Shown here: positions 34,818 to 52,470 of the stretch, piece after piece
Numbering within the stretch: the first letter of the stretch is position 1
How the letters are laid out: each line of letters opens with the position of its first letter
Source of the DNA: Planctomycetota bacterium
GTDB taxonomy: Bacteria; Planctomycetota; Phycisphaerae; Phycisphaerales; UBA5793
Length of the DNA stretch: 64,000 bases
Assembly: GCA_963205185.1 (NCBI GenBank)
Contig: CAUJHZ010000058.1
Coordinates: 1 to 64,000, forward strand
Direction of reading: 5' to 3'
Notes under the pieces: model-generated
Databases searched by the model: none
What the model was told of the DNA's origin: nothing
Seen by the model: the letters and a program-made list of their open reading frames with translations, nothing else
Program-made: the position numbers and the translations under genes

Positions 34818-36218
34818 ATGTTCACTCGCAGAAACATGATACTCAGCAGCGCCGCACTCGGGGGCGCCGCCCTTGTCGCGCCTCGACGCTCGCTCGCCTC
34901 GGCGGTCCAGGATCAGCCTGTCGGTGCCTCGCCTCCCAAGGGTTCTTCACGCTACGAGCAGACCGAGCGACAGTGGGAAGCCTCTTATGCCGGCGACCGG
35001 GACCATCCGATTCTCGAGCCCGGCTTGCCCGGCCGGCACTACCAGCCGGTCATCACGCCCTCCGGGGCGTCGCTGCCGTGGAAGATCGTGGATGGAGTGA
35101 AGGTGTTTCACCTCATCGCCGAAGAGGTTGACCACGAATTCGCCCGCGGCCTGCGCGGAAAGTGCTGGGGTTACAACGGTCGAGTTCATGGGCCAACGAT
35201 CGAAGCAGTCGAAGGCGACCGGGTTCGCATCTACGTGACAAATCGTCTGATCGCGCCGACATCGGTGCATTGGCACGGCGTCTACCTCCCCAACGGCATG
35301 GATGGCGTGGGCGGACTCAATCAGAAGGCCATCCGTCCCGGCGAGACCTTCAAGTACGAGTTCACCGTTCGCCAGCACGGCACGTTCATGTACCACTCTC
35401 ACCACGACGAGATGACGCAGATGGGGATGGGCTTGATGGGCATGATCGTCTTCCATCCGCGTCAGCCAACCTCAGACTACCGGGTGGATCGCGACTTCGT
35501 CATCATGCTCAGCGAGTGGAAGATCGTGCCAGGAACCTCGCGTCCCGATCCCAATGAGATGACCGATTTCAACGTGCTGACCATGAACGCCCGCGCCTAT
35601 CCGGGAACGGAGCCGCTCGTGGCCGAGTTGAACGATCGCGTGCGCATCCGCTTTGGCAACCTCAGCGCGATGGATCATCATCCCATTCACATCCACGGTC
35701 ACTTCTGGAAGGTCACCGCGACCGACGGCGGCCAGATTCCACCGCCGGCGCAGTGGCCGGAAACGACGGTCCTCGTGCCGGTCGGCGCTACGAGGGACGT
35801 GGAGTTTGTCGCTTCCGAGCCGGGAGACTGGGCGATGCATTGCCACATGACCCACCACCTCATGAATCAGATGGGGCACGGTATGCCCAACATGATCGGC
35901 ATCGATCCCAGTATGCTTGATCGAAACCTCGGCCCGCTGCTGCCGGGATACATGACGATGGGTCACGATGGAATGGGCGAGCACGGCGTCCACATCGAGC
36001 GCGGCCACATGGCGGTGCCCGACAACAGCATCCCCATGGTCGGCGCGGTCGGCCCGTTTGACTACATCACCATGGGTGGGATGTTCACCATCGTCAAGAT
36101 CCGTGAGCAACTCAGCTCATACGATGATCCGGGCTGGTACGAGAACCCGCCCGGTACCGTAGCCAGCCCGGCGACGCGGCAGGAACTCGCCCGCGATGGA
36201 GTCGGCGCCGCGGGTTGA
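34818..36218 (+). CDS. multicopper oxidase, CopA/CueO-like
   Basis: This 466-residue periplasmic oxidase probably oxidises Cu(I) to the less toxic Cu(II). A twin-arginine-type leader (TRRNMILSSAAL) is followed by two cupredoxin domains. All four copper motifs are present: HWHG at 151-154, HSHHD at 193-197, HHPIHIHGH at 287-295 and HCHMTHH at 341-347. His/Met-rich stretches follow the last motif (MNQMGHGM and GHDGMGEHGVH), as in copper-resistance oxidases. It has the compact length of two-domain-like copper oxidases. Confidence 0.93.
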   Translation: MFTRRNMILSSAALGGAALVAPRRSLASAVQDQPVGASPPKGSSRYEQTERQWEASYAGDRDHPILEPGLPGRHYQPVITPSGASLPWKIVDGVKVFHLIAEEVDHEFARGLRGKCWGYNGRVHGPTIEAVEGDRVRIYVTNRLIAPTSVHWHGVYLPNGMDGVGGLNQKAIRPGETFKYEFTVRQHGTFMYHSHHDEMTQMGMGLMGMIVFHPRQPTSDYRVDRDFVIMLSEWKIVPGTSRPDPNEMTDFNVLTMNARAYPGTEPLVAELNDRVRIRFGNLSAMDHHPIHIHGHFWKVTATDGGQIPPPAQWPETTVLVPVGATRDVEFVASEPGDWAMHCHMTHHLMNQMGHGMPNMIGIDPSMLDRNLGPLLPGYMTMGHDGMGEHGVHIERGHMAVPDNSIPMVGAVGPFDYITMGGMFTIVKIREQLSSYDDPGWYENPPGTVASPATRQELARDGVGAAG

Positions 36219-36240: not shown

Positions 36241-37740
36241 ATGGATGAAGCAGCAGCCATTCGAATCACGCCTTCGACCGTCATTCGGTCGGCGGGGCAA
36301 GCGCCGAAGCACCCGCCCCTCCGCAGGATCGCAGAGTGGTTCGGGCGGCGGACGCTTCGGACACAACTGCTCCTCCTGGTCAACCTGATTGTCGGCACGG
36401 GGTTGATCACCTTTCTCTACCTCGATTACCGACAGGGCGTGCGCTCCGCCATTCACGCCAAGATCGCGTCACTTTCGGATGAGGCGAGGGCGATTGCCGT
36501 GGCGATTGGGCCCCTTGAGCAGGTTGGCTCAAGCGCGGTTCAACATCACATCGATGCCGTCTGCACCGCAATGGACCAGTCGGAATCTCCCGGCCACATG
36601 ATCGAGGTGCGCATCGGAGATCGTCTGCTGCGATCTCATCCGTCTCTGCACGGCGAAGCCCACGATCCAGTCCTTTCGGAGAGCGAGTCACGGGTGGTCG
36701 GCCGGGCGTCCCTGGAGGACGTGCGGGTGGCCGTATCCGAGCAGGCTTGGGGCGCCGTCCGCGCGACTCAGAACGAGGCCGCGGTGCGGGCGGGCATCAT
36801 TGCCGCCTCGGGCTTTCTCGGCGCCCTTCTCATCAACTTCCTGATTCTCCGCCTTGTCAATGCGCCCATTCGCGACCTGACGACGTTTGTCCGCGGTGTT
36901 GGTCGCGGCGAATTCGGAAAGCCGCTGACCACTGGCGGCAGCGCCGAGATCTCCTATCTGGCGCGCGAAGTGTCCGCCATGAGCCGCGAACTCGGCGCGC
37001 GCGAGCGAGACCGGCAGCGTCAACTGGCCCGGGCCCGGCAGCTTCAGCAGCACCTGATGGCCGCGAAGAGTGCCAATGGCGACTGCTGCTCCGCTATGGC
37101 CTTCGAGCCGGCGGATGAGGTCGCCGGGGACTTTGCCGAGATCATCGATCTTCAAGACGGATCGGTGCTGATTTGCCTCGCTGATGTCTCCGGTCACGGC
37201 ATCGCCGCGGCGATGGGCGCCGCGATGATCAAAGCGCTCCTGCTTTCGCTTGACGTTTCGCGGCTCCCGCCGGCGGAACTCCTGAATCAGATGAACGCCC
37301 GCTATCTTGACGCAAGCCTGCCTGAGGGTTTCGTCTCCATGATCGTCGTTCACATCAACCACGCGCGTGATGTGGCGACCTACGCGAGCGCGGGTCACGA
37401 GACCTGCTACCTTCGGCGTCACGACGGCGGCGTGACCCCACTCGAATCGACCGGATCCTTGCTGGGCATGTGTGAGAGCGCCGACTGCCGGGATGCCGCC
37501 CTCCCGCTGAACGCGGGAGACACCATCGTTCTTCTTTCCGATGGAGTTTCAGAAACGATGAACGCAAGCGGCGACCTCTATGGCCGGGCGCAGATCATCG
37601 AACTGCTAGCTACCCCTTCATTGCGTAGTCCGGCTCAGATGATCTCGCTGATCTGCGACGATGTGGCACGTCATCGCCAGGAGGCGCGCCGTACGGATGA
37701 CATGACCATCGTCGCGTTCAAGATTGACACTCGGGATTGA
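36241..37740 (+). CDS. membrane-bound SpoIIE/PP2C-type serine phosphatase
   Basis: This 499-residue protein has a transmembrane helix near 42-62, an extracytoplasmic sensor of about 110 residues, a second helix near 185-205 and a HAMP linker. The PP2C SpoIIE domain from about 285 has the acidic metal sites in VAGDFAEI, ADVSGHG, LSDGVSE and RRTDDMTIV. Such enzymes dephosphorylate anti-anti-sigma factors in partner-switch pathways. No anti-sigma partner is in the window. Its position between oxidase and ATPase suggests it senses the periplasm and tunes metal-stress gene expression. Confidence 0.88.
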   Translation: MDEAAAIRITPSTVIRSAGQAPKHPPLRRIAEWFGRRTLRTQLLLLVNLIVGTGLITFLYLDYRQGVRSAIHAKIASLSDEARAIAVAIGPLEQVGSSAVQHHIDAVCTAMDQSESPGHMIEVRIGDRLLRSHPSLHGEAHDPVLSESESRVVGRASLEDVRVAVSEQAWGAVRATQNEAAVRAGIIAASGFLGALLINFLILRLVNAPIRDLTTFVRGVGRGEFGKPLTTGGSAEISYLAREVSAMSRELGARERDRQRQLARARQLQQHLMAAKSANGDCCSAMAFEPADEVAGDFAEIIDLQDGSVLICLADVSGHGIAAAMGAAMIKALLLSLDVSRLPPAELLNQMNARYLDASLPEGFVSMIVVHINHARDVATYASAGHETCYLRRHDGGVTPLESTGSLLGMCESADCRDAALPLNAGDTIVLLSDGVSETMNASGDLYGRAQIIELLATPSLRSPAQMISLICDDVARHRQEARRTDDMTIVAFKIDTRD

Positions 37741-37820
37741 GAGGCACCTATGACCCACGGTCTTATTCGTTTACTTCCGGTTGTGCCTTTCACTCGGCGT
37801 TCGAAGACGGAAGGCTAACT

Positions 37821-39932
37821 ATGCGCGAGCATCATCAGCACGAGCCGAAACGCACGCAAGGTCTCGACGACCATCCTCATCGTGACATGGGGCCCGGAGG
37901 CACCGCTCCGCCGCACAAAGACGGGCGAAGCGGTCATGCAGGTCGTAGCGCGATCGCGTCTGATCACCACAGCCATCACGCCCACATGGTCGCCGGCTTT
38001 CGGCGTCGATTCTGGATCTCGCTTGCACTCTCCATTCCCGTTGTGGCACTTGCTCCGATGATCCAGAGATGGGTTGGCATTCAGGAGACACTGCGCTTCT
38101 CGGGCGATGCGCAAGTGCAGTTCGGCCTTGCTTCGGTGGTCTATTTCTACGGCGGATGGCCATTCCTGGCAGGGTTCGTTGCCGAATTGCGCAAAGGCAG
38201 GCCCGGCATGATGACGCTGATCGCCCTCGCGATCTCCGTCGCGTACTTCTATTCCAGCGCGGTGGTGTTCGGGCTCAGGGGTGAGGTCTTTTTCTGGGAG
38301 CTTGCGACACTGATCGACATCATGCTCTTGGGGCACTGGATCGAGATGAGATCGGTCATGGGGGCGTCGGCCGCTCTTGAGAAACTCGTTCGACTCATGC
38401 CCTCGGAAGCGCATGTGGTTGAACCGGAGGGCGGAACGCGCGACGTGAAGGTCGCCGACCTCAAGCACGGCGACAAGGTGCTCGTGAAGCCGGGCGAGAA
38501 GATACCCACCGATGGCATCATCCTCGACGGCCGGTCGACAGTCAATGAGGCCATGCTGACCGGGGAGAGCAAGCCTGTGGAGAAGAGCGAGGGTGATGAG
38601 GTCATCGGCGGCGCGATCAATGGTGAAGCGGCGTTCACGATCGAGGTCCGCAGGACGGGCGGCGAGACCTACCTGTCTCAGGTGATCGAAATGGTCCGGC
38701 GAGCGCAGGAATCAAAGTCGAGAACCCAGGATCTCGCCAACCGGGCCGCCTTGTGGCTGACGATCATAGCGATCTCCGTCGGAGCGATCACTCTCGCCAC
38801 ATGGCTCATCATCGGTGAGACATTCGACTTCTCTCTGGAGCGCGCCGTGACTGTCATGGTCATCGCCTGCCCCCATGCGCTTGGCCTGGCCGTGCCGCTG
38901 GTCGTGGCGGTGTCGACGTCAATCGCCGCCGGCAATGGTCTGCTCATCCGGGATCGCTCCGCATTTGAACGAGCCCGCGAGATCAACGCCATCGTGTTCG
39001 ACAAGACCGGCACGCTCACCGAGGGCCGCTTCGGCGTGACGGATGTGATTTCCCTGGGCGAGCGATCCGAAGAGGAGTTGCTGAAACTTGCCGCCGGTCT
39101 GGAAAGCCAGTCCGAGCATCCGATTGCCGATGGCGTCGTGCGCAGCGCGAAGGAGCGCGGCATCGAGTTTAGCTCGCCCGAAGAGTTCAAGGCGATCCCG
39201 GGCAAGGGAGCCGAAGCGATTGTTGATGGGACGCGACTCATGATCGTGAGCCCCGGCTATCTGCGCGAGAAGAACCTCACGATCCGCGACCCACGTGTTC
39301 AAGAAGTCGCCGAGCAAGGCAAGACGGTGGTCTACCTGTTGATCGACGATCAGGTTGCAGGCGTCATCGCCTTGGCAGACATCATCCGCCCCGCGTCGCG
39401 CGAGGCGCTGGGCCGCCTCAAGGAGATGGGCATTCAGGTCATGATGCTGACCGGAGATGCGAAGGCCGTTGCGATATGGGTCTCGGCTGAACTTGGGCTC
39501 GATGAGTATTTCGCGGAAGTCCTGCCGGACCAGAAGGCGTCGAAGATCAAGGAAATCCAATCGCGCGGATTGACCGTCGCGATGACCGGCGATGGTGTCA
39601 ATGACGCACCGGCGCTGACGCAGGCTGATGTGGGAATTGCCGTCGGGGCGGGCACGGACGTGGCGATCGAGTCGGCGGACATAGTTCTCGTTCGTTCGGA
39701 CCCGCGCGATGTCACGGCGATCATCCAACTGGCGCGAGCCACGTACCGCAAGATGGTCCAGAATCTGTGGTGGGCGACGGGGTACAACGCCTTAGCGATT
39801 CCCGCCGCCGCGGGCCTCTTCTATCCGCTGGGCGTCCTTCTCTCGCCCGCCGCCGGTGCGGTGTTAATGTCGTTGTCAACCGTCATTGTCGCGATCAACG
39901 CTCGGTTCCTTCGCCTCGAACGCTCTGGATGA
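37821..39932 (+). CDS. copB: copper-exporting P1B-type ATPase with CPH motif (CopB-like)
   Basis: This 703-residue membrane pump has a His-rich N-terminus (residues 1-56) in place of the usual CxxC domains. It has the actuator TGES at 248-251, the membrane metal site C350-P-H352, the phosphorylation site D394-KTGT and the hinge MTGDGVNDAP. The CPH variant is typical of P1B-3 (CopB) ATPases that export Cu. ATG 37821 was chosen for GGAAGG upstream; the open frame extends further but has no sense. The C-terminal helix pair is intact. With the oxidase and YHS proteins it makes this a copper island. Confidence 0.93.
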   Translation: MREHHQHEPKRTQGLDDHPHRDMGPGGTAPPHKDGRSGHAGRSAIASDHHSHHAHMVAGFRRRFWISLALSIPVVALAPMIQRWVGIQETLRFSGDAQVQFGLASVVYFYGGWPFLAGFVAELRKGRPGMMTLIALAISVAYFYSSAVVFGLRGEVFFWELATLIDIMLLGHWIEMRSVMGASAALEKLVRLMPSEAHVVEPEGGTRDVKVADLKHGDKVLVKPGEKIPTDGIILDGRSTVNEAMLTGESKPVEKSEGDEVIGGAINGEAAFTIEVRRTGGETYLSQVIEMVRRAQESKSRTQDLANRAALWLTIIAISVGAITLATWLIIGETFDFSLERAVTVMVIACPHALGLAVPLVVAVSTSIAAGNGLLIRDRSAFERAREINAIVFDKTGTLTEGRFGVTDVISLGERSEEELLKLAAGLESQSEHPIADGVVRSAKERGIEFSSPEEFKAIPGKGAEAIVDGTRLMIVSPGYLREKNLTIRDPRVQEVAEQGKTVVYLLIDDQVAGVIALADIIRPASREALGRLKEMGIQVMMLTGDAKAVAIWVSAELGLDEYFAEVLPDQKASKIKEIQSRGLTVAMTGDGVNDAPALTQADVGIAVGAGTDVAIESADIVLVRSDPRDVTAIIQLARATYRKMVQNLWWATGYNALAIPAAAGLFYPLGVLLSPAAGAVLMSLSTVIVAINARFLRLERSG

Positions 39933-40188
39933 CTTTGGTCTGGAGGATGGGAGCCGGAGTCTGGAATTGGATGGAAAGGAGTTGCATTGGACAGCGTAGG
40001 AGCGTCGTTTGAGGACGCCTGATTCTCCGCGGTCATTGCTGCTCATGGTGGTTCTTGTCGTTGCATGGTCAGTCATCGAGGTTGAGAATGCCCGAATCCG
40101 CATTCCTGAAGCTGCTTGCAAGGCCGGCGCGAGGCGACATTGCCCGCGTCGACGAAGCGTTACACACTTTTGCGAAAGGAACACTGTC

Positions 40189-41184
40189 ATGACACACACA
40201 CGGATTTCAAGGGTTTGCATGGTGGTGGCCGCGTTGCTCGCCGCCATGGGGACAACCTCGAGCATGCTCGGGCAATCGACGCCGCCGGCCGACGCCACAC
40301 ACTCGCAGCATACTCAGCGCCCTGACGCCCCGAAACCGGATGCGCCACCGGCCGAGCCTTCCATGAAGGACTTGATCGAACAGCTCGCAGCGTTGCGCGG
40401 CGAGGTCGCCCGATTGCAGGCTGCACTGGCGCAAGGGCATGCTCCATCGCAGGGGATGTCAGCGCCTCCCGCCCCGGATGGCATGCAGCGCCGCATGGGC
40501 ATGGGTTCGATGGGGGAAGCGCCGGCGATGGGCGGCGGCGCGGGTGGAATGTCAGGCATGTCCGGACCCCCCGGCGTGTCCGACGGTGGTATGGGCATGC
40601 GGGATATGGACGTGAAAGTGATGGGCGGTGGGATGTCCGGCGGTCCGCCCGCAATGGCCGGCAGGATGGGCATGGACCAGATGATGAAGATGATGGGTAT
40701 GGGTGAGATGCCTATGGGCGGCGCGGGCAGTACTGCGACCATGAGCATGCCCTCGGCACTCCCCGGCTTCCCCGGGGCATCGCATATCTACCATGTCGGG
40801 GCCACGGGGTTCTTCCTCGATCATTCCAAGCACATCACGCTCACGCTCGATCAGCAGATCGCGCTCAATCAACTGAAGGAGCGCGCGCTGCTCCAGCAGG
40901 CCGATCTGCAGCGCAAAAGCGCGCAGGCCGAGCAGGAACTTTGGCTGCTGACCGCCGCGGACCAGCCTGATGCCGTGGCGATTGAGCAGAAGGTGCAGGA
41001 GATCGCTCGCAAGCAGGGCGAACAACGGCTGGCATTCATCCGTGCGGTGGGCGAGGCTGCGCGCGTGCTCACCGATGAACAGCGCCAGCAACTCACCGGG
41101 ATGCTTCCTCCCGCGCCAATGTCCTCGGTTCCGCTCTCTCCGCTAGCGCCCGCTGTGCCCCAAGGCGGCATGGACGACAGGTGA
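40189..41184 (+). CDS. periplasmic Spy/CpxP-like Met/Gly-rich protein
   Basis: This 331-residue protein has a signal peptide, a short coiled coil (LAALRGEVARLQAALA), and about 110 residues rich in Met and Gly (GMSGM, MMKMMGMGEM). A C-terminal all-helical part follows with the LTLDQQIALNQLKERAL and LTDEQRQQL repeats of Spy/CpxP-like metal-resistance proteins. The Met-rich centre is suited to binding Cu(I). ATG 40189 has AAAGGA eight bases upstream. The 256 bases before it hold no convincing gene. Confidence 0.8.
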   Translation: MTHTRISRVCMVVAALLAAMGTTSSMLGQSTPPADATHSQHTQRPDAPKPDAPPAEPSMKDLIEQLAALRGEVARLQAALAQGHAPSQGMSAPPAPDGMQRRMGMGSMGEAPAMGGGAGGMSGMSGPPGVSDGGMGMRDMDVKVMGGGMSGGPPAMAGRMGMDQMMKMMGMGEMPMGGAGSTATMSMPSALPGFPGASHIYHVGATGFFLDHSKHITLTLDQQIALNQLKERALLQQADLQRKSAQAEQELWLLTAADQPDAVAIEQKVQEIARKQGEQRLAFIRAVGEAARVLTDEQRQQLTGMLPPAPMSSVPLSPLAPAVPQGGMDDR

Positions 41185-41222
41185 ACCAACTCCAGCGTAC
41201 TTCAATAGACAGGAGACTTCCT

Positions 41223-41522
41223 ATGACCAAGACTGTTCAATCAACCAAGATACGGTCGCACACCTTCACCGTGGCCGCCCCGCAAGCGAAGGAGGTTCTC
41301 GTCGCCGGTTCGTTCAACGCCTGGAGGGGCCAGCCCATGAATCGAAGTCGATCGGGCGAGTGGTCCGCGAGCATTGAGCTGAAGCCGGGCCGCCACGAGT
41401 TCAAGTTCATCATCGATGGTCAGTGGTGCTGTGAGTCGGGCTGCGATGGGCCGCACGAAGGCTGCCCCAAATGCGTGCGCAACTCGTTTGGCACGATGAA
41501 CCGCGTGCTCGAGATCCACTGA
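41223..41522 (+). CDS. CBM48/AMPK glycogen-binding-fold mini-protein with a Cys cluster
   Basis: This 99-residue protein has the E-set/CBM48 signature (EVLVAGSFNAW, W-x-A-x-I-E-L-x-P-G-x-H-E-F-K-F-I-I-D-G). In the usual place of the loop after the D-G-x-W there is a Cys cluster CCESGCDGPHEGCPKC. The ATG at 41223 has AGGAG upstream. A carbohydrate-binding fold in a copper operon is unexpected; the Cys cluster suggests a metal site. Confidence 0.8.
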   Translation: MTKTVQSTKIRSHTFTVAAPQAKEVLVAGSFNAWRGQPMNRSRSGEWSASIELKPGRHEFKFIIDGQWCCESGCDGPHEGCPKCVRNSFGTMNRVLEIH

Positions 41523-41533
41523 GGATTCGCCCC

Positions 41534-41938
41534 GTGGTCGAACAACAGCGGTTCCAACTTCGTCGCGTTGTCCTCTGGATGGCGGCCACCGTCTTGCTGC
41601 ACTTTCTGGTGGGCACGCGGACGCACGCCCTGCATGGACTGCACATCCTGCTCGCCGGCATGTTCTTCGTACCTATCCTGATTGGCGCGGTCACGTTCGG
41701 TACGCGCGGAGGTGTCCTGACAGCACTGGCGGCTGGCGTGCTTTACCTCGCTCACCTCCTGTGGTCCTGGCGCGGCTCGGAGATGGGCAATGCGGATCAG
41801 TACGCCATGATTGCCGTGTACTTCATCGTCGGAATCGTCGCGGGCCGGCTGGTGAGCGTCGCCAACTTCCGCAAGTGGCAGCGCGACGAAATCATTCGGC
41901 GGGCGTATCGGGAATCTCTGGGAGCCAAGGAGAAATGA
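41534..41938 (+). CDS. orphan four-helix membrane sensor-like domain
   Basis: This 134-residue protein starts at GTG 41534 (GAGG ten bases upstream). Four helices contain LHGLHILLAGMFFVPILIGAVTFGTRGG and resemble the membrane sensor part of some histidine kinases, but the protein stops after a short cytosolic helix, with no kinase domain. Its stop overlaps the start of the reductase fusion (ATGA). It may be a remnant or a dedicated membrane partner of the reductase. Confidence 0.65.
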   Translation: MVEQQRFQLRRVVLWMAATVLLHFLVGTRTHALHGLHILLAGMFFVPILIGAVTFGTRGGVLTALAAGVLYLAHLLWSWRGSEMGNADQYAMIAVYFIVGIVAGRLVSVANFRKWQRDEIIRRAYRESLGAKEK

Positions 41939-43668
41939 ACCAACCGTGCCATTCATCCATGTTGGCCGCAGTGATCGTCTTCACGTTCACGATCCTGCTC
42001 GGCGCTCAGGTTGCGCCGGAGGAGCATGCCAGCCATCATCCAGGTCAGGACAGCCCCACGGAGGATGGCGTTTCCCCCGATGGGGCCGGGGCGATGGAAG
42101 GCATGACCGAGATGATGCAGGGGATGGGTGCTCCCCCGCCCAAGGAGCTCTACCCGACGCTTATGGAGCTCTCGGGCCTCTCAGAAGAAGAGCGGGCGGA
42201 AGTGAAAGCGGCGGCCCACGAGCGCATGAAGAGTGGCACAGTGTTGATGGCGGAGGGACTTGATCGACTGGTGCGATCTGCTCCGACGGACGATTACGAA
42301 GCGATGCAAGAAGCGGTCGCGCTGCTGCGCGAAGGGATGGCGCGATTTGACAGTGGTCTCGCGGCACACCGGGCGCTATCCGAGAATCAGGACGGACGAG
42401 CCATCGCCATGAACTGGTTCAGGTCGCAGATGAACCTGACCGGACCGGCCATGCCCGCGGAGCGATGGTCCGTCCTCGGCCTCTCGGCGGCGCACCTCTC
42501 ACTCATGGTGATCCTGATCGGCTTTGCGCTGGCGATGATCGCGATGTACTTCTTCAAGATGCGCCGCGCCTCGACGCTGCTGCGGCGACTGACCGAAACA
42601 CCCCGCGGACCCTGGGGCGGTTCCCTCCGCGTGGCGCGGACCTTCGCCGAAACACCATCCATCAAGACCTTCCGCCTGCTCGAACCCGTCGGCGGCCCAA
42701 TCCCGTTTACCTTCCTTCCCGGACAATTCCTGACCCTAACGGTCGCCCGAGACGGCAGGACCGTCAAGCGTTCGTACACGATCGCGTCGTCGCCCGCCCA
42801 ACGCGATTACATCGAGATTACAGTGAAGCGTGAGGAACGGGGTTTCGTCTCGCGGTATCTCTGTGATGAAGTCCGCGAGGGGGCACTCCTCCAGGTTTCT
42901 GCTCCGCAGGGCTATTTCACGTTCACCGGCAAGGAAGCCGAAAGCATCGTGCTGATCGGTGCCGGCGTGGGGATCACGCCCCTGATGAGCGTGATTCGTT
43001 ACCTCACCGATCGGGCGTGGCCCAAGGACATTTACTTGCTCTTCTCATGTCGTACGCCCGATCAGTTCGCCTTCGGCGCCGAACTTGAACACCTGCAACG
43101 CCGCCATGCGAACCTTCATGTCGTTGCCACAGCGACTGGATCAGACGGAACTGAGTGGACAGGCCTGCGCGGCCGATTCACCAAAGAATTGATCGCGAAG
43201 TCAGTGCCCGACATTGCCAGTCGGCACATTCACCTTTGCGGCCCTGCGCCGATGATGGACGCCACGCGTGCGATGCTGCTCGAACTCGGGGTGAAGGCAG
43301 CGAACATCAAGTCCGAGGGCTTCGGTCCGCCACCGGGTCAAAGGCCGCACGAGCGCCAGATTGCGTTTCAAGCCGCGGTAGCGCAAGTAGATCCGGATGC
43401 CCCGGAAGTGCCCAGCGTGGTCTTCACAATTTCCGGCAAGACCGCGCCACTACCAGCTGACGTGAGCGTCTTGGAGGCCGCCGAGCACGTCGGAGTTTCG
43501 ATCGACTATTCCTGCCGCGTCGGCACCTGCGGCGCATGCAAAATCAAACTCCGCAAGGGCACGGTCACAATGGCCGTGGAGGACGGTCTGCCGCCCGGGG
43601 AGAAGGCCAGTGGCATTATCCTTGCATGTCAAGCCAAGGCAACGGAAAGCCTGGAGGTGGAAGCCTAA
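41935..43668 (+). CDS. membrane-anchored FAD/NAD and [2Fe-2S] reductase fused to a periplasmic Met-rich domain
   Basis: This 577-residue protein has a signal-anchor (8-24) and a His/Met-rich helical region (25-175, MEGMTEMMQGMG and LSGLSEEERAEV) like Spy/CpxP. A transmembrane helix lies at 185-207. A ferredoxin-reductase module follows, with the FAD motif RSYT at 279-282, the NAD(P) loop GAGVGITPLMS at 342-352 and LCGPAPM at 434-440. A plant-type [2Fe-2S] domain has Cys 527, 532, 535 and 565. Electrons would pass from NAD(P)H through FAD to the cluster on the cytosolic side. The next two genes supply haem proteins. I know of no characterised protein with this domain order. Confidence 0.88.
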   Translation: MNQPCHSSMLAAVIVFTFTILLGAQVAPEEHASHHPGQDSPTEDGVSPDGAGAMEGMTEMMQGMGAPPPKELYPTLMELSGLSEEERAEVKAAAHERMKSGTVLMAEGLDRLVRSAPTDDYEAMQEAVALLREGMARFDSGLAAHRALSENQDGRAIAMNWFRSQMNLTGPAMPAERWSVLGLSAAHLSLMVILIGFALAMIAMYFFKMRRASTLLRRLTETPRGPWGGSLRVARTFAETPSIKTFRLLEPVGGPIPFTFLPGQFLTLTVARDGRTVKRSYTIASSPAQRDYIEITVKREERGFVSRYLCDEVREGALLQVSAPQGYFTFTGKEAESIVLIGAGVGITPLMSVIRYLTDRAWPKDIYLLFSCRTPDQFAFGAELEHLQRRHANLHVVATATGSDGTEWTGLRGRFTKELIAKSVPDIASRHIHLCGPAPMMDATRAMLLELGVKAANIKSEGFGPPPGQRPHERQIAFQAAVAQVDPDAPEVPSVVFTISGKTAPLPADVSVLEAAEHVGVSIDYSCRVGTCGACKIKLRKGTVTMAVEDGLPPGEKASGIILACQAKATESLEVEA

Positions 43669-43670
43669 CC

Positions 43671-44426
43671 ATGCAGGAGCGTGAGCGTGTCATCGTCAGT
43701 TGTCTGGTCGCTCTGCTGCTGGTGCTGGCTGGGGGTTTCGTGTTCCATCGTGATGAGCGGTTCGCCGGCAGTCTTGAGGGCGGCATGCTCGGCCTCTCGG
43801 CCGCAGCGCTGATGTTCATACCGCTGCTGTACCTGCTCGTAAAGCGGATTCCATTCTTCAAGCGGCGGGTCACCCCGCACACCTCGATGCGCACGCTGCT
43901 GGCCATCCACATCTACGCGGGGATCATCGGGCCGATTCTGGCCATCCTTCATAGCGGCCACAAGTTCAACAGCACCGTCGGGATCTGGCTCACGCTGATG
44001 ATGCTGATCGTCGTCGTCAGCGGCTTTCTCGGGCGCTACCTCATGGGTCGCGTCTCGACGGAGATCCGCGACAAACAGATCATGCTCGCCGCCCTCCAGA
44101 AGCAGTATGATTCGCTCGCTTCAGATCTTCGCCTCGATCCTGCGGCCATCGTGCGCATCCGCCGCTGGTCGGGGTTCTTTCGACGCCTTGCGGCTCCATT
44201 CGTTTTCCCATCCGACGCGGATTCTTCGCGTGAGCCTTTCAGCAAGGCGGTCTCGCTGTCAACATCCATCGCCGATGTTGAGTATGCCATCCACACGCAT
44301 CAGACGGCCAAGGAAGTGTTTCGGAAGTGGCTGATGTGCCACATCATCATTGCGATTGTATTCTACACGCTTCTGGTCCTGCACATCTGGTCAGAATGGT
44401 ACTTTGGAATCCGGTGGCTCTTATGA
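43671..44426 (+). CDS. b-type (bis-haem) membrane electron-transfer protein
   Basis: This 251-residue protein has about five transmembrane helices and a cytosolic helical loop near 128-215. His80/His94 and His224/His238 form two H-x13-H pairs in separate helices, the spacing by which ferric reductases and NADPH oxidases hold two stacked haems; a further His97 is close. It starts two bases after the reductase gene and its stop overlaps the multihaem cytochrome start. It fits as the conduit across the membrane. Haem binding is inferred from spacing. Confidence 0.78.
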   Translation: MQERERVIVSCLVALLLVLAGGFVFHRDERFAGSLEGGMLGLSAAALMFIPLLYLLVKRIPFFKRRVTPHTSMRTLLAIHIYAGIIGPILAILHSGHKFNSTVGIWLTLMMLIVVVSGFLGRYLMGRVSTEIRDKQIMLAALQKQYDSLASDLRLDPAAIVRIRRWSGFFRRLAAPFVFPSDADSSREPFSKAVSLSTSIADVEYAIHTHQTAKEVFRKWLMCHIIIAIVFYTLLVLHIWSEWYFGIRWLL

Positions 44427-45193
44427 AAGCCCTTCCAATCATCTACGGCGTCGTGACGACCAGTGCTCTGGCTGCTGCGATCGGGATTCCCGCAGTGATC
44501 CACGAACGAGGCACGCAGGCCGTCTCAACGTGGCAGGCGATGGTCAGTCCCGGCGACCTCTCGGCCAAGCACGCTTTCCTCGAGAACGACTGCGAGGCGT
44601 GCCACACGCCCCATCGTGGGCCGACGGCCGACAAGTGCATAGTTTGCCATGCCAACAACGAGTATTTGCTGTCCAAGCAGACGACGGCGTTTCATTCGGA
44701 TGTCGCGGAGTGTCGCGGCTGTCACCTCGAACATCGTGGTGCGGCGAAGCGATCCGTGGAAATGGATCACATGGTGCTGGCGGCCATCGTCTTGAGCCGC
44801 GCGAAGTCCGAACCAGGGTTTGGGGCCATGCAGATGTCGTCGTTGCCAGTTGGTCACTCGCGCATCCAGCCACTGGAAACACTGCTCGACTGTGCCGCGT
44901 GCCATTCGAATCAGGACCCACATCGTACTCTGTTTGGGATTGACTGCGCCGCCTGCCACGGCACAAGCGCAATGACCGGATGGATGATTCCAGAGTTTCG
45001 CCATCCATCGCCGCTTTCAACCGACTGTGCGCAGTGCCACCAGGCCCCGCCCAGCCACTACATGATGCACTTTCAGATGGTATCAATGAAGGTGGCTGGC
45101 GTGGTGCACGCCGATGTGTCGCAGTGCTTTCTCTGCCACCAGACGAACTCGTGGAACGACATCAGGGGCGTTGGGTGGTACAAACATCACTAG
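44423..45193 (+). CDS. seven-haem c-type cytochrome
   Basis: This 256-residue protein has an N-terminal signal-anchor (4-24) and seven CXXCH motifs (57, 72, 97, 157, 175, 202, 235). Extra His residues in between can act as distal ligands. ATG 44423 overlaps the preceding stop. As a periplasmic multihaem protein it is the likely electron acceptor of the upstream membrane protein, passing electrons to a metal ion, to the multicopper oxidase or to a respiratory acceptor. Confidence 0.9.
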   Translation: MKALPIIYGVVTTSALAAAIGIPAVIHERGTQAVSTWQAMVSPGDLSAKHAFLENDCEACHTPHRGPTADKCIVCHANNEYLLSKQTTAFHSDVAECRGCHLEHRGAAKRSVEMDHMVLAAIVLSRAKSEPGFGAMQMSSLPVGHSRIQPLETLLDCAACHSNQDPHRTLFGIDCAACHGTSAMTGWMIPEFRHPSPLSTDCAQCHQAPPSHYMMHFQMVSMKVAGVVHADVSQCFLCHQTNSWNDIRGVGWYKHH

Positions 45194-46323: not shown

Positions 46324-46364
46324 CGATCACCGCGTTCTGTAAGAGTCCCTAACACTATGGCATG

Positions 46365-46620
46365 CTGATTGCTGATGGCTGTGGAGTGCCATCCGTTGCG
46401 GCTGGTTGCATGGCGGCGCCTGATCTGCTGCAGTGGCAGGTGGTGCTGGTCAGGCCGTTGTTGATGATGAGAGACCAAGCGGAGTAGTTGGCGCTCTGGC
46501 CGGCGTCAAAGTTGGCGGTGCCGAAGAAGATGGGGATCAGGATGGTGCCGTTTGGGAACACGGCGGCCCTGCATGTGAAGCGGCGCATGGTGCTGATGAA
46601 CTGGTAGTTCAGGACGCACA
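46365..46620 (-). pseudogene. diverged 3' fragment of the Cys-rich prophage gene (copy A)
   Basis: Translation gives IPIFFGTANFDAGQSANYSAW and INNGL, clearly related to residues 185-260 of the 318-residue protein at 51514-52470 but diverged. The first 180 codons are missing. It is the outermost of four copies of this gene end. Confidence 0.75.
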
Positions 46621-46665
46621 CCCCCCATGATCTCAAGCCGATCCGCGCGGTTGGCGGCAGCCCTT

Positions 46666-47290
46666 TCACCCGCGCCGCTGCTCCTCCGGCGCATCCGCCA
46701 GGTCCAGCGCCGTCGCATCGTCAAAGCGGTGCGGGGCGACGGGCGGGCCGGTGACCCCGGTACTGGTCAACGCAGCGCTGTCCTCTGCCCCATCGCAGTT
46801 CGTATCGCACGCCATCGTGAGTATCGCCGTTCCGCCCATCGCGACCGGGGGCATCGCCGCCCCATTCCGCCGCTCAGGCAGGCGGTGCTGCTCAGGCCGT
46901 TGGGGATGACCAGCGGCCAGATCGAGTAGTTGGCGCACTGGCGCGCGTCGAAACTCGCTGCGCCGAAGAAGATGGGGATCGGAATCGTGCCGGCGGGCGA
47001 GGCGGTAACCCAGAGGACAAAGCGCCGCGTGGTGCCGACGACCTGGTAATCGAGAACGGCGCTGGTGATCAGCACGCTGAACGTGTTGCTCGTGCCGGTG
47101 CAGTTGGCGTTGACGTATTGCGTGGCGTCGATGCCGGTGTCGGGCAGCACGACGCACATGTGCCACTGGCGGCAGACAGTGCCGGGTGCGATCTCGGCGC
47201 ACGGCAGGTCGGGGTCGCGGATGCAGCACTTGTCGTGGACGACGAGTTGCAGCGGCGGCGCGAGGAGGAGGCAATGCTCGCTGCGCCCGC
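46666..47290 (-). pseudogene. nearly identical 3' fragment of the Cys-rich prophage gene (copy B)
   Basis: From about 46860 to 47220 the DNA is nearly identical to 51770-52102 of the intact gene (CVVLPDTGIDATQYVNA, IPIFFGAASFDARQ). Upstream the sequence changes abruptly to an unrelated in-frame stretch with CC, and a frameshift follows IPNGLSST. The last part is diverged from the intact gene but ends with the same LADAREEQRRG tail. Confidence 0.85.
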
Positions 47291-47734
47291 AGCGCGGCGC
47301 TAGTGCCGCGAACCGCCGTCAGCTCCCGGAGAGACCGGTGGACTCTTGTGACGTTTGCAGGGCGGGATTCGCGGATTCCGATTGACCTTGTCGCGATCCT
47401 TCGGCGCTGATGGCGTAAGCGTTCGCTCTCCAGGCGTTCCGCTGTGCCTGCGGAGAATTCGACCCCGATGGCACGGTCCCCGGTCGATCTGAAATCCACG
47501 GGACAGGAGTGTGCCTTGTTAGGCTAACTTGCGGCGCGATTGTCGGCCCCTCCACGCTCCGTTTCCGGTCCAATGTCGGCCAGCGACTCCGAGCGTTGGT
47601 CCCGGCACCGAGCCGCTGAGTGCAGCATCGGCAAACAGAAGTGAGAAGCATGCATCCCGTCGGACTTCGCACACGCTCGCGCGCGATCCGAGACTGGCCG
47701 GTCTGGTCGCAGTACGCGCTGTCAACTGGGCTTA

Positions 47735-51513: not shown

Positions 51514-52470
51514 TTATGCGCTAGATCTCCGCTTGCGACAGTTCTGGCACCCGAGCCGTCGTTCCTCGCGAGCATCAGCCACATCGATCGCCGCGGCATC
51601 GGCAAAGCGATGCGCTGCAATCCGCGGCCCCGACGCTTCGGTTGACGCCAGCCCCGCACCACCGTCGAAACCACTGCAATCCGTATCGCACGCCATCGTC
51701 AGTGTCGCCGTGCCACCCGTCGCGGCCGGATGCATCGCAGTACCGGAACCGCCGCAGAAGCACGCGGTGCTGCTCAGGCCGTTGGGGATGACCAGCGGCC
51801 AGGTCGAGTAGTTGGCGCACTGGCGCGCGTCGAAACTCGCTGCGCCGAAGAAGATGGGGATCGGAATAGTGCCGGCGGGTGAGGCGGTGACCCAGAGGAC
51901 GAAGCGGCGCGTGGTGCCGACGACCTGGTAGTCGAGCACGGCGCTGGTGATGAGCACGCTGAACGTGTTGCTCGTGCCGGTGCAGTTGGCGTTGACGTAC
52001 TGCGTGGCGTCGATGCCGGTGTCGGGCAGGACGACGCACATGTGCCACTGGCGGCAGACCGTGCCGGGGGCGATCTCAGCGCACGGCAGGTCGGGATCGC
52101 GAATCGGCGTGTGCGCGCCGTCGTTCCAGTTGAACGGCAGCACCAGATCGGGCATCGCGGCGGAGAGGTACTTGTACGATGCCCACGTGCCCGGCGCGGC
52201 CACGCAGTTGTTGTTGCGGAACGTGCGGCAGTTCGTCACGAACGTCAGGCCGCTGAGCGTCACGGTCAGACAGGCCTTGCCACTGGCGTTGTGGCAGCCT
52301 GCGGTGGGTAGCGCGTGTTTGATCCCGTCGCCACAGACCCAGCACTCGCAGCACAGGCAGTGGGGGCAGTCGGCGCCCTCTTTGCAGCAGCAGCATCGCG
52401 TGCTCGTCGCGGGCAGGCCGGACGAACCGAGCAGCAGCGTGTTGCCGGATGGGCCGAGGATAAGGGGCAT
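51514..52470 (-). CDS. Cys-rich prophage protein, intact copy (copy D)
   Basis: This 318-residue protein begins with MPLILGPSGNTLLLGSSG, then CCCCKEGADCPHCLCCECWVC, an extremely Cys-dense region at 26-47, and further paired Cys. It has no signal peptide. It is the distal gene of the prophage tail module, where host-range or tail-tip proteins are usual, but I recognise no family. Three partial 3' copies lie to its left. The C-terminus (HRFADAAAIDVADAREERR) is the most repeated part. Confidence 0.75.
   Translation of the reverse strand: MPLILGPSGNTLLLGSSGLPATSTRCCCCKEGADCPHCLCCECWVCGDGIKHALPTAGCHNASGKACLTVTLSGLTFVTNCRTFRNNNCVAAPGTWASYKYLSAAMPDLVLPFNWNDGAHTPIRDPDLPCAEIAPGTVCRQWHMCVVLPDTGIDATQYVNANCTGTSNTFSVLITSAVLDYQVVGTTRRFVLWVTASPAGTIPIPIFFGAASFDARQCANYSTWPLVIPNGLSSTACFCGGSGTAMHPAATGGTATLTMACDTDCSGFDGGAGLASTEASGPRIAAHRFADAAAIDVADAREERRLGCQNCRKRRSSA

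Follow-up and report, generated by a model that had tools for sequence, protein, structure and literature searches.

The stretch of DNA analysed here, hereafter the window, comprises 64,000 nucleotides (nt) from a Planctomycetota bacterium (contig CAUJHZ010000058.1, positions 1 to 64,000 of the forward strand). It contains three adjacent genes that a preliminary description, made from the sequence alone, had read as a cytosol-to-periplasm electron relay within a copper operon. The three open reading frames (ORFs) are all found where that description had placed them, at the end of a co-directional gene run, and encode a reductase, a membrane protein and a cytochrome, together called the trio below. 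Its features are as follows.

41935..43668, plus strand: reductase subunit, 577 residues; PF00970, PF00175 and PF00111 above the Pfam cut-off
42007..42480, plus strand: secreted N-terminal domain of the reductase (residues 25-182), with an EEHASHHP motif, a Met-rich stretch and a helical bundle
43414..43665, plus strand: plant-type [2Fe-2S] ferredoxin domain of the reductase, Cx4Cx2Cx29C; PF00111, E 6.4e-14
43671..44426, plus strand: membrane protein, 251 residues, predicted di-haem b carrier by its invariant His, AlphaFold2 model and structural neighbours
43908..43952, plus strand: H80-x13-H94, predicted axial ligands on membrane helix 3; invariant, and kept in a distant fused family
44340..44384, plus strand: H224-x13-H238, predicted axial ligands on membrane helix 5; invariant, and kept in the distant fused family
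44423..45193, plus strand: periplasmic heptahaem cytochrome c, 256 residues, with an N-terminal membrane anchor; PF14522, PF02085 and PF14537 above cut-off

The first two genes had been said to start two bases apart; the spacing of 2 nt is correct and the wording loose, as it is the dinucleotide CC between the stop codon of the reductase gene and the ATG of the membrane-protein gene. The ATGA overlap between the membrane-protein and cytochrome genes is seen in the sequence, and another ATGA overlap joins the upstream ORF at 41471-41938 to the reductase gene.

The trio is a real unit whose relatives are found together elsewhere. In particular, the order reductase, membrane protein, cytochrome is kept in all 86 further loci, comprising six plasmid loci and 80 genome loci (the best 80 of 255 relatives from a profile scan with one genome per species). 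The distance between the reductase and membrane-protein genes is 60 nt or less in 79 of 84 loci; a few loci have a reductase gene that is split or is interrupted by an insertion or the end of a contig, and two have another ORF-sized stretch between the membrane-protein and cytochrome genes. The trio occurs in at least ten phyla and on plasmids, some of them conjugative. A protein search of 72,556 plasmids located the membrane protein in 52 records, including those of Alteromonas, Methylophaga, Spirosoma, Legionella, Sphingobium and Bradyrhizobium, and the six plasmid loci examined have the same trio neighbours; a search of viral contigs for the membrane protein found none. Strong matches (E < 1e-58) occur in only ten of 392 planctomycete genomes, making the distribution patchy. 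Further, phyla are intermingled in a maximum-likelihood tree (18 label changes against a least possible 10), which together with the conjugative plasmids fits horizontal transfer; transfer is not claimed firmly because the tree includes bins and paralogues. In about 15 Legionella genomes (L079-L114), the trio adjoins ATP synthase genes.

The reductase agrees with its earlier description as an FAD/NAD(P) and [2Fe-2S] module with a helix anchor and a Met/His-rich outer domain, according to Pfam profiles and hydropathy. Its FAD_binding_6, NAD_binding_1 and Fer2 domains, each above cut-off, stand in the order of a class I FNR-type reductase, and the AlphaFold2 model (predicted local distance difference test score, pLDDT, 83.6) superimposes residues 227-465 on structure 4eh1 with Z 31.3 and a root-mean-square deviation (rmsd) of 1.6 over 229 aligned residues. 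Among 45 aligned homologues (plasmid sequences were left out of this alignment and of the 57-member alignment of the membrane protein), the cluster ligands C527, C532, C535 and C565 are invariant, as are the flavin and nucleotide motifs. The N-terminus begins with a signal-like hydrophobic stretch, followed by the secreted domain, whose 158 residues include 13 Met and 5 His; a second hydrophobic helix at about 188-206 is then followed by KMRR, a positive cytosolic edge. Within the secreted domain, H31, H34 and H35 (EEHAxHHP) and M57, M60 and M61 are conserved in at least 90% of the 45 reductases, while M77 is invariant, as is H187, which lies just past the domain at the start of the membrane helix. 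The secreted domain has no Pfam match, and its profile comparison with the neighbouring Metal_resist chaperone found no similarity. The class I oxygenase reductases (phthalate dioxygenase reductase, GbcB, Hcr) share the same order of flavin, nucleotide and [2Fe-2S] domains; they feed soluble enzymes, whereas the module in the trio has a membrane anchor and a secreted metal-rich domain joined to it.

The membrane protein carries the two H-x13-H pairs described earlier, His80/94 and His224/238. All four are invariant in the 57 aligned relatives, as are H26 and H97. This invariance and the gene order kept in 86 of 86 loci place the four-His arrangement and the trio far beyond chance. As in ferric reductases, four His on two helices with x12-x14 spacing are the predicted ligands of two b haems, and the protein is predicted to be a di-haem b carrier. 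The AlphaFold2 model (mean pLDDT 87.6) has helices at 3-23, 35-59, 73-94, 102-154 and 189-250. Hydropathy and the model agree on five hydrophobic membrane helices, compared to six in the ferric reductase domain superfamily. A long helical insert separates helices 4 and 5, which are extended in the model into a stalk that should be cytosolic. In many planctomycete and related loci (L039, L041, L044, L046, L052, L060, L061, L064, L068, L069, L072, L077 and L081), the frame of the membrane protein is about 290 residues longer at its C-terminus; the extension in L044 is DUF547 and would be periplasmic.

Distant relatives of this protein supply a separate line of evidence. Weak planctomycete matches are true relatives by hhalign profile comparison (E 3e-31), with all four His aligned. 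Many are about 750 residues long with the di-haem b domain at the C-terminus (L011, L015, L019, L021, L023, L026, L028 and L030), and the three that were scanned have [4Fe-4S] motifs and a pyridine nucleotide-disulphide oxidoreductase ahead of the membrane domain. Nearly all distant relatives adjoin a cytochrome with 8-17 CXXCH motifs (9-17 at the loci of the 750-residue form). The membrane domain is thus joined to two types of dehydrogenase, with a multihaem cytochrome in both cases, which independently supports a path from flavin and Fe-S centres through b haems to c haems. The 750-residue fusion appears to form another transmembrane relay, of larger size and frequent in Planctomycetota.

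The third gene had been described as a seven-CXXCH cytochrome, and seven CXXCH motifs are counted in its 256 residues. The same number is found in 85 of 86 related cytochromes, the remaining one being cut by a contig end. Seven further His (H50, H91, H104, H116, H167, H194 and H212) are conserved at 0.99-1.0 in the 86 relatives, and three others reach about 0.9; seven are enough for bis-His ligation of each haem. The simplest reading of this conservation is that all seven c haems are bis-His ligated, with no open catalytic haem. The protein exceeds the curated cut-offs of PF02085 (30.8 bits versus 22.9) and PF14522 (31.1 versus 24.8), and resembles class III cytochromes c and cytochrome c7 as multihaem CXXCH periplasmic carriers with bis-His haems. 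It differs from them in its N-terminal anchor, in having no close solved relative (a profile search for solved structures returned none at E < 0.05) and in its constant seven haems, compared to the three or four per protein of c3/c7 cytochromes. The preliminary description had called the cytochrome the terminal acceptor; it is the outermost known part of the trio, but the predicted bis-His ligation throughout makes it more likely a conduit.

The trio is part of metal, mostly copper, resistance islands. In the window, the co-directional run also includes YHS proteins, a TolC-like protein and the following genes.

34818..36218, plus strand: multicopper oxidase; PF07732, E 4e-37
36241..37740, plus strand: membrane-bound HAMP/SpoIIE (PP2C-type) phosphatase; PF07228, E 5.9e-42
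37737..39932, plus strand: copper-type P1B ATPase with a CPH motif; TIGR01511, 627 bits versus a cut-off of 397; the true start is probably internal
40009..41184, plus strand: Met-rich periplasmic chaperone of the Metal_resist (Spy/ZraP-like) type, upstream of the trio within its operon; PF13801, E 1.2e-8; the true start is probably internal
41181..41522, plus strand: AMPK1_CBM/CBM48-like small protein; PF16561, E 7.8e-15
41471..41938, plus strand: small membrane protein with a relationship to the DUF4118 sensor domain; PF13493, under the cut-off at E 1.6e-4

The copper setting proposed earlier is borne out by the multicopper oxidase, the copper ATPase and the metal-resistance chaperone in the same operon, through profile matches and a CPH motif read directly from the sequence; the oxidase is the sole PF07732 match in its genome. 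Across 65 lineages, defined as genera or bins, a Metal_resist chaperone homologue is the commonest neighbour of the trio (43 lineages, from a cluster that also took in small CBM-like proteins; a member of 240 residues or more is present in 45 loci), followed by a P1B ATPase (27), a multicopper oxidase (23) and a resistance-nodulation-division (RND) pump (12), counts that are approximate because the neighbour clusters were built by BLAST and each named from one or two members. At least one of these four metal genes lies by the trio in 53 of the 65 lineages, so that linkage to genes for copper export and oxidation is recurrent. For comparison, the background density in 40 planctomycete genomes (about 180 Mb) is about 0.08 matches per Mb for the chaperone family and about 0.07 for the oxidase family; a chance match in a 20-kb flank is therefore expected in well under 1 of 100 loci. 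The small AMPK1_CBM/CBM48 protein, glycogen-binding-like, recurs beside the Metal_resist chaperone in copper islands (41181-41522 here).

The three genes, their conserved linkage, the conservation of their ligands and their metal context are computed directly, and the earlier reading of a relay within a copper operon agrees with the conserved trio, the b-haem His arrangement and the metal genes. They point strongly to electron transfer from NAD(P)H to the periplasm, and the trio is likely to be a dedicated cytosol-to-periplasm electron relay of metal (mostly copper) resistance islands. In the proposed mechanism, NAD(P)H would reduce the FAD of the anchored reductase, with electrons then leaving through its [2Fe-2S] cluster. 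Two stacked b haems between helices 3 and 5 would carry them outwards across the membrane, the inner haem held by H80/H224 and the outer by H94/H238. The outer b haem would then reduce the membrane-anchored cytochrome c, whose seven bis-His haems would pass electrons to a periplasmic acceptor, for which Cu(II), oxidised Met-rich proteins and other molecules are the presumed candidates. The steps as far as the outer haem follow from domain identity and ligand conservation; the later steps we infer, as we do haem occupancy, the direction of electron flow and the contacts between the subunits. The Met/His-rich secreted domain probably binds copper at the outer face, where it may act as a sensor or gate or present the metal. 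The most likely job of such a relay would be to maintain copper in the periplasm, and the Met-rich proteins that handle it, in the reduced state, with the ATPase, the RND pump and the multicopper oxidase removing or detoxifying the metal. Both metal reduction and redox protection by the trio are hypotheses drawn from the gene context and the Met/His-rich domain.

Several results weigh against this reading. With regard to context, 12 of the 65 lineages have no metal gene in the fetched flank, in some cases because contigs end; the sphingomonad and Legionella loci have mixed contexts; and among the trio loci compared there is no conserved downstream gene that would point to the acceptor. With regard to the fold, a Foldseek search with the membrane-protein model gave nothing at E <= 0.001, and its list places SpNOX at rank 48, below unrelated helical bundles. 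On the supporting side, the top row of VIA-align is SpNOX, with Z 10.0 and rmsd 3.3 over 121 aligned residues (model 33-251 on SpNOX 28-155), a score to be read against helical bundles that may reach Z 13 without relationship; the match falls on the di-haem core of SpNOX and bears indirectly on whether the two His pairs face each other. Because such scores can arise by chance, the fold evidence rests on the agreement of the neighbours in function and on the histidines: the next rows, close behind SpNOX, are cytochrome b6, hydrogenase-1 cytochrome b, cytochrome b561 and Dcytb, and nearly all are di-haem membrane cytochromes. The haem ligands of SpNOX are H69/H129 and H82/H142 (PMC11031084); the end points of the alignment place H238 on SpNOX H142, an outer-haem ligand, provided that the helix aligns gap-free. 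With regard to sequence, a link to the ferric reductase family was not found by Pfam profile or hhalign. In particular, PF01794 does not match the membrane protein at E <= 1, and hhalign of its family against a small set of five PF01794 proteins found nothing; the distant relatives match PF01794 only below cut-off (E 7e-5 to 8e-3). Searches of Pfam, NCBIfam and the PDB, with the single sequence and with a profile, gave no convincing match.

The likeness to ferric reductases and NADPH oxidases noted earlier stands for the arrangement of the histidines and lacks sequence support as family membership; with no significant sequence link to PF01794, filing the membrane protein in the ferric reductase family is not justified. 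It probably works like a ferric reductase. A more speculative view, which we hold only tentatively, is that it is the founding member of a superfamily missing from the catalogues, made up of di-haem b proteins with five helices whose relationship to ferric reductases would be very remote or nil. This superfamily would have been connected to NAD(P)H dehydrogenases on two occasions, in trans to FNR/[2Fe-2S] and in cis to [4Fe-4S]/Pyr_redox, with a multihaem cytochrome as partner in nearly every case; in mobile copper islands it would power periplasmic copper chemistry directly from NAD(P)H. If so, it would represent a layer of bacterial copper resistance not described so far.

NOX, SpNOX and FRE proteins (PF01794) resemble the trio in moving electrons from NAD(P)H through FAD and two b haems across the membrane, in their x12-x13 His spacing and in having the nearest predicted fold. 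They differ in that the trio is unfused, with separate genes in every locus, and has an extra [2Fe-2S] cluster, a dedicated multihaem cytochrome and no detectable sequence relationship. The resemblance of the fold to SpNOX favours a function as an NADPH-oxidase-like superoxide generator or as an overflow valve for excess NAD(P)H, as does the presence of glutamate dehydrogenase, an NAD(P)H producer, by the trio in 18 of 65 lineages. Such a function is nonetheless improbable: reduction of O2 needs no strictly conserved seven-haem cytochrome, and superoxide would worsen copper toxicity. The glutamate dehydrogenase gene itself (for example L084, 11894-13219) is a possible local source of NAD(P)H.

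The copper genes also bear on the direction of electron flow. FNR-type modules are capable of reverse operation, and the presence of a multicopper oxidase in the same operon marks copper oxidation as relevant here; periplasmic oxidation, for example of Cu(I), could thus feed the cytochrome and reduce NAD(P)+. The Cu(II)/Cu(I) couple has a much higher potential than NAD(P)+/NAD(P)H, so inward flow would need an energy input, and a coupling module is not present, making this direction very improbable.

Under outward flow, the trio could instead be a strict periplasmic metal reductase, in which Cu(II), or a species of Ag, Hg or Fe, is reduced directly, either by the heptahaem cytochrome or by the outer b haem next to the Met/His domain. 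The near-invariant HxxHH and Met clusters of the secreted domain, the repeated proximity of copper-handling genes and the b561/Dcytb-type ferric reductases among the structural neighbours are all consistent with this function. Moreover, RclA, a cytosolic Cu(II) reductase, protects E. coli (PMC7527725). Production of Cu(I), however, usually raises toxicity and opposes the co-encoded multicopper oxidase. A partner removing Cu(I) would be needed, a task in which the neighbouring ATPase and RND pump could help, and the seven c haems, all predicted to be bis-His, would have no open site. On balance, a strict metal reductase is a possibility of some weight, though a doubtful one.

A redox-repair line like Fre/MsrQ/MsrP would instead keep Met- or Cys-containing periplasmic copper proteins, or a Spy-like chaperone, reduced. 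The MsrPQ system is induced by copper through CusSR and repairs CusF (PMC9302797), and it also repairs the chaperone Spy (PMC12503329); the Spy-like Metal_resist chaperone is the most frequent neighbour of the trio (43/65). No methionine sulfoxide reductase or thioredoxin-fold gene is prominent among the named recurrent neighbours, so the repair enzyme would need to be encoded elsewhere, and we regard a repair line as rather unlikely.

As a known system, Fre/MsrQ/MsrP shares with the trio a separate cytosolic FNR-family flavin reductase, a di-haem membrane protein with paired His on two helices and a periplasmic partner; MsrPQ is copper-induced, and the trio is likewise tied to copper by its gene context. 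The preliminary description had presented the separation of reductase and membrane parts as a novelty, which it is not, as Fre and MsrQ of E. coli are already separate proteins (PMC5676040, PMC11031084). In contrast to Fre, the reductase in the trio is held in the membrane by an anchor, contains a [2Fe-2S] cluster of its own as well as the secreted Met/His domain, and is encoded in the operon. In all 86 loci a heptahaem cytochrome, and not a molybdoenzyme such as MsrP, is the periplasmic partner, which places the trio outside MsrPQ; the membrane protein, unlike MsrQ, is predicted to have five helices and does not match PF01794. The MsrQ-like and PepSY-like flavinylated systems (PMC8238504) are also modules for electron transfer beyond the cytosol, fed by NAD(P)H donors and with interchangeable outer carriers; the outer carrier is covalently flavinylated in those of Meheust et al. 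2021 (PMC8238504), and a heptahaem cytochrome in the trio.

Weyman et al. studied the HynSL hydrogenase cluster of Alteromonas, whose genes orf1 and cyt are, by gene order, the membrane protein and cytochrome of the trio (PMC3102683). This is the only earlier experimental mention found, and no description of the trio beyond orf1/cyt was found in openly licensed papers. Orf1 and cyt were treated there as hydrogenase accessory genes, and the upstream reductase lay outside the construct (PMC3102683). The position of the A. macleodii trio directly upstream of the HynSL cluster suggests that the trio could be the redox partner of a periplasmic [NiFe] hydrogenase. The authors concluded that Orf1 and Cyt are unnecessary for maximal HynSL activity in E. 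coli, whereas Orf2 is needed (PMC3102683); this argues against a partnership, with the limit that the in vitro assay does not cover electron transfer. Further, a large hydrogenase subunit occurs in only 1 of 87 loci, and Salinimonas L116 and Alteromonas L115, which have no hydrogenase structural genes, keep both the trio and orf2, indicating that the trio is independent of hydrogenase. Hydrogenase partnership was accordingly rejected as a general role, and is the least probable of the functions considered here.

The NiFe hydrogenase cluster of Alteromonas (L031, 17801-27755) is absent from the close island relatives L115 and L116, each with a hyp-gene remnant at the junction; the hydrogenase was probably lost there while orf2 and the trio stayed. 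The Alteromonas islands as a whole accompany higher tolerance to copper, zinc and mercury, in work that does not separate the trio (PMC4781885).

Overall, the principle of a cytosolic flavin reductase, a di-haem membrane protein and a periplasmic partner is already known from Fre/MsrQ/MsrP and the NADPH oxidases. What is new is a membrane protein outside every reference family, whose family may prove separate, and a trio undescribed as a system in the papers found. Copper resistance is usually pictured as export, oxidation and sequestration. If true, the proposed relay would bring in a reductive branch and tie metal tolerance to central metabolism through cytosolic NAD(P)H. It would also be a clear prokaryotic example of an NADPH-oxidase-like wire whose periplasmic partner is defined; according to a paper from 2024, MsrQ alone among such prokaryotic proteins has a clearly identified function (PMC11031084). 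Public records annotate the membrane protein as hypothetical or as an 'iron reductase', so that at least 255 genomic places would be open to re-reading.

Two further observations concern the window. The HAMP/SpoIIE phosphatase of the PP2C type (36241-37740) sits between the multicopper oxidase and the ATPase within the copper operon. On the minus strand downstream of the trio, two Cys-rich proteins (46355-47499 and 51514-52470) have long near-identical stretches in common over about 5 kb, for example MCVVLPDTGIDATQYVNANCTGTSNTF, and are apparently a recent duplication within an uncharacterised family.

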